DNA of 64,000 nucleotides from positions 399,041 through 463,040 of the forward strand of contig NZ_JAMTCO010000002.1 of NCBI RefSeq assembly GCF_024171925.1, read 5' to 3'. The stretch comes from Actinokineospora diospyrosa (GTDB lineage Bacteria > Actinomycetota > Actinomycetes > Mycobacteriales > Pseudonocardiaceae). Positions 18,668 to 53,740 of the stretch are shown one piece after another. The position numbers and the translations under genes are program-made. Under the pieces are notes generated by a model, which was not told the origin of the DNA, made no database searches, and worked only from the letters and a program-made list of their open reading frames with translations. Position 1 is the stretch's first letter. Each line of letters opens with the position of its first letter.

Positions 18668-18783
18668 GCAAGATCATCTGCCGCAAGAGCCCCCGATATA
18701 CAGCCTATTGACGGATCCCGACAGATCCGGGGCAGCGATCAGGGCCTGTGGACAACAGAACACGTTGTGGACAACCACCCGCC
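18668..18783 (+). repeat. DnaA-box repeat unit (composite A, one copy)
   Basis: One copy of the ~124-bp unit: AAGATCATCTGCC, then CCCCCGATATACAGCCTA, then two identical nonamers TGTGGACAA at 18747-18755 and 18766-18774, start-to-start 19 bases, same orientation. The nonamer is the reverse complement of TTGTCCACA, the consensus DnaA box of high-GC actinomycetes. It directly precedes the 69-bp array. Confidence 0.75.
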
Positions 18784-18799
18784 GACCCACCCGGCCCGG

Positions 18800-19080
18800 C
18801 GGTGCCAACCCGCCCCCCGTCAGGCTCGCCCCAACCCACAGCGCCAGCCCGTGGACACTCGGAAGCTGGCGGTGCCAACCTGCCCCCCGTCAGGTCCGCC
18901 CCGACCCACAGTGCCAGCCCCTCGACAGTCGGACCCGCCGGTGCCAACCCGGCTGCCGTCAGGTCCGCCTCAGCCCACCTTCCCAGCCCGTGGACAGTCG
19001 GAAGGTCCGGTGCCATCCCAGCCCGCTCTCGGCTGCCCTGCCAACCCAGCCCGGCGGCCGTCGGAGTCGCTGGTGCCAAG
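18800..19080 (+). repeat. tandem ~69-bp repeat array (composite A)
   Basis: About 4.2 imperfect units starting at 18800, 18870, 18939 and 19008, with spacing 70, 69, 69 and a final 63 bases. Each has GGTGCCAACC, CGTCAGGTCCGCCC and GTGGACAGTCGG-type segments. The last, shorter unit next to the hairpin carries CGCTCTCGGCTGCCCTGCCA, found in the same place in the other two composites. Unit lengths break any reading frame and there is no start site. Confidence 0.8.
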
Positions 19081-19081
19081 T

Positions 19082-19226
19082 GCTCGATGGGGTGGACCTG
19101 TTTTGCGTGGGGGGACGGCACCCGTAGCGTTGTTCACGCGGCAGGGCCTGCTTTTGGGCCCCTGCTTTGCGGTTCTGCCACGGGTGTCGTAGGGGCCCCG
19201 CGCAAAACAGGTCCACCCCATCGAGC
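19082..19226. repeat. 145-bp structured hairpin element (composite A)
   Basis: Perfect 26-bp inverted repeats at 19082-19107 and 19201-19226 enclose an inner arm, ACGGCACCCGT (19115-19125) against ACGGGTGTCGT (19180-19190), and a GC-rich terminal hairpin near 19144-19165. Related copies are at 44217-44360 and 53351-53497. It lies between convergent qor and the ABC permease gene. It could be a structured RNA, a large terminator or a miniature mobile element; no flanking target duplication is seen. Confidence 0.75.
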
Positions 19227-19257
19227 AAAGCTCGAAAATCGCGGATCGGGCCCGATG

Positions 19258-43825: not shown

Positions 43826-44215
43826 GCTCCCGTCAGGTCCGCCCCACCTGCCCGGCCGACCATTAAACACTCGAACCCCAGCAGTGCCAACTGGACTTCC
43901 GCCAGCTCCCGCCCCAACCCACCCGGCCCCTGGACACTCGGACCAGTCGCCGCCATCCCAACCCGCCGACCCACCCCTGCCAACCCCTGGACACTCGAAC
44001 CCGGCGGTGTCAGCCTGCCCCCGTCGGGTTCGCCCCAATCCACCTGCCTAGCTCGTGGACATTCGGACTTAGCGGTGCCAACTCGGCTGCCGTCAGGTCC
44101 GCCCCAACTCACCCACCCAGCACCTGGACACTCGGAACGGCCGGTGCCAACCCAGCCCCGCTCTCGGCTGCCCTGCCAATCCAGCGCCTGGACAGTCGGA
44201 CTCGCTGGTGCCAAA
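43826..44215 (+). repeat. tandem ~60-69-bp repeat array (composite B)
   Basis: About six diverged units with the same GGTGCCAAC, CGTCAGGTCCGCCC and CTGGACACTCGGA segments as composite A. The last full unit, starting at 44143, is 64 bases and again carries CGCTCTCGGCTGCCCTGCCA next to the hairpin. Confidence 0.75.
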
Positions 44216-44216
44216 T

Positions 44217-44360
44217 GCTCGATGGGGTGGACCTGTTTTGTGTGGGGGGACGGCAGCCGTAGCGTCGTTCAGCGGCAGGGCCTGCTTTTGGGCCCCTGCT
44301 TTGCGGTTCTGCCACGGGTGTCGTAGGGGCCCCGCGCAAAACAGGTCCACCGCATCGAGC
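44217..44360. repeat. 144-bp structured hairpin element (composite B)
   Basis: Arms at 44217-44242 and 44335-44360 match the 26-bp arms of composite A with two mismatched positions. The interior is nearly identical to copy A, including the GCAGGGCCTGCTTTTGGGCC terminal hairpin. The inner arm has one extra mismatch. It lies between the convergent LuxR-type and EAL-GGDEF genes. Confidence 0.75.
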
Positions 44361-44390
44361 TTTTCGCATTGTCGCGGATCGGGCCCGAGG

Positions 44391-44476: not shown

Positions 44477-44717
44477 AAGATCAACCTGATCGAAAGCCCC
44501 CAAATACACAGCCTACCGCCGCACCCCGACAATCCGGCAGCAGCGACCAACGCCCTGTGGACACCCAGAACCGTTGTGGACAACCAACAACCAGCCCCAC
44601 AAGATCATCTGCCACAAGAGCCCCCGATATACAGCCTACCGATGCGCACCGACAAACCGGCAGCAGCAACCAGAGCCTGTGGACAACCAACAGCATTGTG
44701 GACAACTCACCACACCA
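44477..44717 (+). repeat. two tandem DnaA-box repeat units (composite B)
   Basis: Units begin AAGATCA at 44477 and 44601, a 124-base period. Nonamer pairs: 44556-44564 (TGTGGACAC, one mismatch) with 44575-44583, and 44678-44686 with 44697-44705; both pairs are exactly 19 bases apart, same orientation. Unit 1 resembles the hairpin-proximal unit of composite C; unit 2 resembles its second unit and the unit of composite A. Confidence 0.75.
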
Positions 44718-52833: not shown

Positions 52834-53193
52834 GGTTATCCACAATGGGCCTGGTTGTCCACAGACGCTGGTCGGCGCTGTTGTTCTGTTGGTGTGTCTC
52901 GGTAAGCTGTGTATTGGGGGGTCTTTCGCACGGTTGATCTTGAGTTGTCGGCTGCGGGGGTTGTTTGTCTACAACGGTTCTGGTTGTCCACAGGCTTCCG
53001 TCGCTGCTGCCGTTCTGTAGGTGCCCGCCGGTAGGCTGTGTATCGGGGGCTCTTGCGTCAGATGATCTTGCGGGGCTGGTTGTTGTTTGTCCACAACGTC
53101 TTCTGTTGTCCACAGGGCGTCGTTCGCTGCTGCCGGTGTGTCGGGGTGCGGCGGTAGGCTGTGTATTTGGGGGCTTTCGATCAGGTTGATCTT
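52834..53193 (-). repeat. three tandem DnaA-box repeat units (composite C)
   Basis: Three units on the minus strand, periods 128 and 124 bases. Nonamer pairs on the plus strand: TTATCCACA 52836-52844 with TTGTCCACA 52855-52863; TTGTCTACA 52965-52973 with TTGTCCACA 52984-52992; TTGTCCACA 53087-53095 with TTGTCCACA 53106-53114. All three pairs are exactly 19 bases apart. The units also share the CGGTAGGCTGTGTAT core and end in TGATCTT. Confidence 0.8.
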
Positions 53194-53320: not shown

Positions 53321-53350
53321 CCTCGGGCCCGATCCGCGACAATGCGAAGA

Positions 53351-53497
53351 GCTCGATGGGGTGGACCTGTTTTGCGCGGGGCCCCTACAACACCCGTGCT
53401 GGGCCTAAAAGCTGGGGGCCAAAGAGCCGGCCCAGCCAGCCGCCAACGAGGCTACGGGTGTTGTCCCCCCACGCAAAACAGGTCCACCCCATCGAGC
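53351..53497. repeat. 147-bp structured hairpin element (composite C)
   Basis: Perfect 26-bp arms at 53351-53376 and 53472-53497, identical to copy A and in inverted orientation. The inner arm ACAACACCCGT (53387-53397) pairs perfectly with ACGGGTGTTGT (53454-53464). Compared with copy A a G-C pair has become A-T and a G-T pair has become A-T, so pairing is kept. The loop has diverged most. Confidence 0.75.
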
Positions 53498-53500
53498 ATT

Positions 53501-53740
53501 TGGCACCAGCGAGTCCGACTGTCCAGGCGCTGGGTTGGCAGGGCAGCCGAGAGCGGGCTGAGATGGCACCGACGGGTCCGACTGTCCAGTGGTTGGCACT
53601 GTGGGTTGGGGCGGACCTGACGGGGGACGGGATGGCACCGGCGGGTCCGAGTGTCCAGTGGTTGGCACTGTGGGTTGGGGCGGACCTGACGGAAGGTCAG
53701 TGGCACCGCTGGGTCTGAGTGTCCAGGGGCTGGGGCGTGG
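53501..53740 (-). repeat. tandem ~69-bp repeat array (composite C)
   Basis: About 3.5 units with TGGCACC landmarks at 53501, 53564, 53633 and 53701, spacing 63, 69 and 68. The 63-base unit again lies next to the hairpin. The second and third units are nearly identical, so amplification is recent. The array ends 38 bases before the acVLRF1 start. Confidence 0.8.

Follow-up and report, generated by a model that had tools for sequence, protein, structure and literature searches.

Paired DnaA-type boxes at a fixed distance from a -10-like hexamer: probable promoters of a DNA-uptake regulon, amplified in Actinokineospora diospyrosa

The window, by which we mean the whole stretch of 64,000 nucleotides analysed (C2:399041-463040), comes from the 8.11-Mb genome of Actinokineospora diospyrosa, assembled in 29 contigs, of which contig C1 (696 kb) was read completely. 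Six pairs of the form TTGTCCACA-N10-TTGTCCACA were found in it at up to three mismatches, against a mean of 0.02 in 100 shuffles. They are the six units that an earlier note on this DNA had described as holding paired nonamers with a fixed 19-bp spacing and the same orientation, and all six were recovered. The box starts are separated by 19 nt in every pair, each locus keeps one orientation, and neighbouring pairs follow one another in steps of 122, 129 and 122 bp. The box variants in the window are TTATCCACA (52836), TTGTCTACA (52965) and GTGTCCACA (44556). All six units carry a -10-like TANNNT hexamer at an offset of 39 or 40 nt from box 2, and the parts of each unit are as follows.

18747..18774, minus strand: unit 1, box pair (TTGTCCACA / TTGTCCACA)
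18716-18724, minus strand: unit 1, PafBC-like -26 9-mer CTGTCGGGA (element span 18702..18724)
18702-18707, minus strand: unit 1, -10-like TAGGCT, 39 nt after box 2
44678..44705, minus strand: unit 2a, box pair
44647-44655, minus strand: unit 2a, -26 9-mer TTGTCGGTG (element span 44633..44655)
44633-44638, minus strand: unit 2a, -10-like TAGGCT, offset 39
44556..44583, minus strand: unit 2b, box pair (box 2 is GTGTCCACA)
44524-44532, minus strand: unit 2b, -26 9-mer TTGTCGGGG (element span 44510..44532)
44510-44515, minus strand: unit 2b, -10-like TAGGCT, offset 40
52836..52863, plus strand: unit 3a, box pair (box 1 is TTATCCACA)
52886-52894, plus strand: unit 3a, -26-like 9-mer CTGTTGGTG (element span 52886..52908)
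52903-52908, plus strand: unit 3a, -10-like TAAGCT, offset 39
52965..52992, plus strand: unit 3b, box pair (box 1 is TTGTCTACA)
53015-53023, plus strand: unit 3b, -26-like 9-mer CTGTAGGTG (element span 53015..53037)
53032-53037, plus strand: unit 3b, -10-like TAGGCT, offset 39
53087..53114, plus strand: unit 3c, box pair
53138-53146, plus strand: unit 3c, -26 9-mer GTGTCGGGG (element span 53138..53160)
53155-53160, plus strand: unit 3c, -10-like TAGGCT, offset 40

The units belong to a composite of constant order: first the units, then short palindromes, a hairpin whose arms measure 39 nt, and repeats in steps of ~69 bp. This order recurs at all three loci in the window and at many places on C1. 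Its larger downstream parts in the window are the following.

53343..53505, unstranded: long inverted repeat behind units 3a-c, with arms of 39 nt that lie 85 nt apart
19074-19234 and 44209-44368: homologous long inverted repeats
53501..53733, unstranded: four repeats in steps of ~63-69 bp, the terminal part of the composite
18815-19024 and 43917-44158: related repeats in ~69-bp steps, beside the hairpins

The arms of the inverted repeat (GCTCGATGGGGTGGACCTGTTTTGCG...) enclose a variable middle and have 33 matches on C1 (696 kb); altered copies are present in G005 and G006 (genomes are given by our own numbers, the present one being G000). The family of ~69-bp-step repeats has 41 matches on C1. 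On this contig, where genes were called with a custom G+C-frame script, 30 of the 37 pairs lie between called genes, five inside called ORFs and two lack a neighbour. The 30 intergenic pairs divide into 14 convergent, 15 tandem and one divergent, the background of intergenic regions of at least 150 bp into 37, 78 and 41, respectively, and 23 of the 30 lie downstream of a same-strand gene's 3′ end. Most copies thus look like noncoding promoters.

The remainder of the unit had been described in the earlier note as less conserved. This holds across relatives, whose spacers differ, but not for every part within the A. diospyrosa genome, where three features return from unit to unit: the TAGGCT-type hexamer, the TTGTCGG element that precedes it by 8 nt, and a GGGGGC...GATCTTG tail. 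A known RNA family was rejected as the identity of the units, since Rfam gave no match within the window; in seven related loci it reported only tRNAs and a SAM riboswitch. We also rejected a short hairpin RNA conserved downstream of the promoter. Strong folding of the 40 nt that follow the presumed start is seen in several genomes before comparison with shuffles; against dinucleotide shuffles the pooled z over 157 units was -0.11 (13% below -1.5), the strongest values being those of G002 (-1.58) and G158 (-1.20), with about zero here.

The pairs are numerous well beyond the window. The whole genome holds 373 at up to three mismatches, compared with two for the pattern read backwards, and 253 at up to one mismatch, with none for the reversed control. 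At the same threshold there are 90-100 in G005, G009, G016 and G147 and 0-5 in most of 150 genomes of the family; the exact pair is present in four of 296 genomes sampled from the class, two of these being of the same genus. Among the 76 exact boxes on C1, same-strand distances peak sharply at 19 nt (13 cases; the runner-up has 3). When exact boxes with a gap of 0-30 nt were considered in relatives, the spacing was exactly 19 nt in 44 of 47 pairs of G005, 38 of 41 of G016 and 28 of 34 of G009, and the preference was weaker in G013 (3/15) and G012 (2/5). Because relatives keep both the boxes and the 19-bp spacing in spite of different spacers, we consider both to be under selection, as had been suggested before from the window alone.

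Some copies depart from the standard layout. At C14:128200-128284 of the present genome five boxes stand in series in 19-bp steps, as if the step itself had expanded. At C1:329252-334489 there are arrays of single TTGTCCACA boxes with the GATCTTG tail and alternating orientation, each box separated from a TAGACT-type hexamer by the distance typical of box 2, which makes them a second, single-box variant. In G048, the first box is CTGTCCACA in 14 of 31 pairs, and these may be a divergent variant or another repeat.

The position of the -10-like hexamer is fixed also outside this genome. Of 152 pairs from seven genomes (up to three mismatches), 138 have a TANNNT whose first base lies 37-40 nt behind box 2, with only four occurrences at all remaining offsets within 0-99. 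In ten further genomes (up to two mismatches) it was found at 38-40 in 41 of 66 rows, with three matches elsewhere in 0-99; the 66 rows represent 64 distinct places, two G048 places being counted twice in overlapping loci. The strict hexamer is absent from 25 of these rows, and it is scarce in G069 (3 of 17 pairs), G158 (1 of 15) and G048 (none of the five exact places read). The looser NANNNT occurs at 38-40 in 16 of the 17 G069 pairs and is common in G158 and G048, too. On C1, 55 of the 76 exact boxes occupy the box-1 or the box-2 position relative to such a hexamer. The recA gene of this genome has a pair of its own, whose boxes show 3 and 0 mismatches and are followed by TAGCGT at offset 39. 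A fixed distance between an activating pair and a -10-like hexamer is the geometry expected of a promoter's upstream activator site, and we regard it as a real, selected and shared promoter signature, from which promoter activity and DnaA binding are predicted.

The element upstream of the hexamer is more restricted. A TTGTCGG-type 9-mer, scoring at least 6 of 9 and separated by a spacer of exactly 8 from the hexamer, occurs in 36 of 40 units here but in only 19 of 139 pairs of the set's other genomes, some of which have TTGAC at 17-20. This -26 9-mer matches the RecA-NDp/PafBC promoter motif. The name of that motif, its -26 position and its occurrence in DNA-damage promoters of Actinobacteria are given in the available text of the respective papers (PMC6789036, PMC8223512, PMC11804915).

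The genes behind the pair bear on its role. All 17 pairs of the G069 genome (up to one mismatch) were read. Behind ten of them a gene plausibly begins, namely comEA, ssd, a SAF/CpaB-like gene, yraN, ssb, DUF4192, an M23 peptidase, an AbiEi-like gene, a PD-(D/E)XK nuclease and one gene of unknown family; the other seven have no clear gene behind them. Five of the ten genes start at +51/52, and such start codons in com genes would fit leaderless mRNAs. Gene families were confirmed by Pfam or NCBIfam where models exist. ComEA stands behind the pair also in G122, G147 and a Pseudonocardiales MAG, Ssd in G048, G064, G147 and G006, and the M23 peptidase in G006 and G158. Further downstream, ComEC is next after ComEA and a T2SSE-type ATPase next after Ssd in G147, and ComM is next after yraN in G006, so that in relatives the promoter would precede comEA-comEC, ssd-tadA (Tad pilus) and yraN-comM. 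In loci mostly chosen for the pair, it lies upstream of comEA in 4/4, ssd in 5/5, the CpaB-like gene in 3/3, the M23 peptidase in 3/3 and SSB in 1/2, the SSB gene of G005 having none.

An AbiEi-like family (L222, L221, L337, L203, L210, L349, L154), named by eye, is a candidate new member of the uptake regulon. It is found behind the pair in five genomes and in Saccharopolyspora sp. HNM0986, whose single pair (up to one mismatch) is located before such a gene. Two of its members had no Pfam match and one had no NCBIfam match.

Most loci of other genera were selected by the pair and their gene lists are biased accordingly, except for the complete G069 list and a set of loci chosen by gene family. 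In the latter, yraN gave matches in 36 genomes and DUF4192 in 35, and 30 loci of each were examined. A pair (up to four mismatches) was present in 15 of 30 yraN and 13 of 30 DUF4192 upstream regions, with 0 and 0 for the reversed control; at this threshold no recognisable pair was seen in half of the 30 former and over half of the 30 latter. In A. diospyrosa itself the yraN pair has 1 and 1 mismatches and the DUF4192 pair 0 and 3. Sites, spacing, geometry, conservation at orthologous promoters and linkage to uptake genes are all direct observations. The fixed distance to the -10-like hexamer, together with the genes that follow the pair in relatives, leads us to assign the pairs to promoters of a predicted DNA-uptake regulon, to which these genes would belong. 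The uptake-gene link is the main new result and goes well beyond the reading of the earlier note.

Taken together, the units are probably promoters with paired DnaA-type boxes as the upstream activating site, belonging to a DNA-uptake regulon and amplified in this genome. The layout would be box 1, 19 bp, box 2, 37-40 nt and the -10 hexamer TANNNT. With a transcription start 7 nt behind the -10, the boxes would lie near -79 to -52. The genes that such a promoter would precede in relatives serve DNA uptake and DNA processing. The box reader, most likely DnaA, would occupy both boxes, contact RNA polymerase and turn the genes on, for example upon a disturbance of replication or of the DNA. In A. 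diospyrosa, copying of the promoter seems to have produced hundreds of noncoding units, mostly intergenic, inside composite repeats and with a PafBC/RecA-NDp-like -26 element. The amplified copies might be transcribed into short noncoding RNAs and act as competitors for DnaA and RNA polymerase. What we infer from these sequences is promoter activity, DnaA binding, activation and any effect of the amplified copies.

Under this promoter reading, DnaA is the likely reader of the boxes. The nonamer had been recognised in the earlier note as a DnaA box, and TTGTCCACA is indeed identical to the high-affinity DnaA box of M. tuberculosis and S. coelicolor, as given in the available part of the publication (PMC4285127). 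An exact box is located 92 nt upstream of the dnaA gene of this genome. Kutzneria albida reportedly has an oriC without classic DnaA boxes (PMC4210621, available text), an observation that bears on DnaA specificity within the family.

A different reader, an as yet unknown competence activator with a DnaA-box-like site, would leave the promoter explanation otherwise unchanged, and we consider it possible but rather unlikely. A dedicated activator fits a 19-bp direct repeat held at a fixed distance to the -10. Among oriC-side boxes in 25 actinobacterial flanks, none of 44 same-strand spacings up to 45 bp was 19 bp, and these boxes vary at other positions (led by C>G at position 5, A>C at position 9 and G>C at position 3) than those of the mostly near-perfect pairs, whose variation falls mostly on positions 1-3 (led by T>C at position 1 and G>A at position 3). 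In addition, the available text of a 2026 paper calls the competence regulon of Micrococcus luteus, an actinobacterial model, currently unknown (PMC12849477). Against such a reader, it would make the identity over 9 bp to the high-affinity DnaA box coincidental, and the main position-3 variant in the pairs is TTATCCACA, the second classic DnaA box. Moreover, DnaA is the sole protein with the DnaA DNA-binding domain (PF08299) that a domain search detected in this genome, the one Bac_DnaA and the one Bac_DnaA_C match both falling in dnaA.

About equally doubtful is the view that the units are part of a non-autonomous composite repeat without host function, spread by transposition or recombination, which captured a com/recA-type promoter. 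The order of the composite, which is conserved at all three loci of the window and at many on C1, the related downstream modules in G005 and G006 and the mostly intergenic placement behind same-strand 3′ ends (23/30) agree with it. However, boxes, spacing and -10 are intact in species whose units are otherwise different.

It is less likely still that the units act mainly as a datA-like sink that buffers free DnaA and times initiation, with the promoter parts as leftovers. The 76 exact boxes per 696 kb extrapolate to roughly 885 per genome, and in three single-contig relatives the pairs are denser towards oriC: the 95 pairs distribute as 31/35/23/6 per quarter from oriC to the terminus (KS p 0.0002). 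By genome, the quarters hold 12/16/14/5 in G006, 10/12/8/1 in G048 and 9/7/1/0 in G069, lengths being rounded for the last two, and G006 alone gave a KS p of 0.067. Since core genes cluster near oriC in this family regardless (PMC3469384, available text), this density is not proof of a DnaA role. Furthermore, titration would have no need of the -10 hexamer, yet 34 of the 37 C1 units retain it and it is kept across species; many relatives have no or few copies. With so many consensus boxes, titration of DnaA may nevertheless occur incidentally.

Identity with datA or DARS, which would be a single special locus per chromosome, finds no support beyond the boxes, given the 373 pairs. The datA/DARS-like or chromosome-organising role that the earlier note had considered is not supported either; the -10-like geometry and the genes behind the pair point to uptake promoters. 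Its statement that the loci are not oriC stands: dnaA is on contig C7 and the window on C2, no dnaA adjoins the units, and the same-strand spacings beside the genome's own oriC (up to one mismatch) are 12 and 20, not 19.

More broadly, and only as a tentative proposal that we would not yet favour, DnaA could be the competence activator of Mycobacteriales, with paired boxes driving comEA-comEC, yraN-comM(-dprA), the Tad pilus, ssb and recA, and with the Pseudonocardiaceae copies forming a genome-wide DnaA-responsive RNA or decoy layer. If this were true, DNA uptake would be coupled to the replication initiator, and several Pseudonocardiaceae would carry dozens to hundreds of noncoding copies. 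Among the matches listed in a search of mostly open-access literature, as far as their available text goes, no paper connects DnaA boxes to actinobacterial competence genes or reports the present repeat, and the available text of two M. luteus competence papers (PMC8467076, PMC12849477) does not mention DnaA. Control of competence in Actinobacteria is open, as the M. luteus case cited above illustrates. A conserved signature that unites comEA-comEC, the Tad pilus, yraN-comM, ssb and DUF4192 makes a competence regulon testable, and predicts the M23 peptidase and the AbiEi-like family as new members. It also hints at a connection of the replication initiator with DNA uptake. With its amplified copies, this genome offers a natural experiment, namely a chromosome with hundreds of extra DnaA-type sites.

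Several known systems resemble parts of this picture. In the ComK, ComX/SigX and Sxy-CRP competence systems of other bacteria, a short site marks uptake, processing and pilus genes jointly, as the pair appears to do; the site differs here, being composed of DnaA-type boxes, found in Mycobacteriales and amplified in noncoding copies. datA, DARS and the Streptomyces DnaA-box cluster likewise have DnaA boxes distant from oriC, but they are single loci holding box clusters, whereas here there are hundreds of pairs, each fixed to a -10. With PafBC/RecA-NDp promoters the units of this genome share a TTGTCGGTG-like element 8 nt before TANNNT, a likeness that is less exact in the recA promoter of this genome. 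Unlike those promoters, the units here have an upstream DnaA-type pair and are mostly noncoding, and most pairs in other genomes lack a -26 element of this type. Finally, DnaA-regulated promoters, such as that of the autoregulated dnaA, also have consensus DnaA boxes in their promoter regions, and DnaA can activate or repress promoters with such boxes, according to the available text of a review (PMC8203912). The units described here differ from them in that the pair is fixed at 19 bp and at 37-40 nt to the -10, is present in hundreds of copies and stands before uptake genes.
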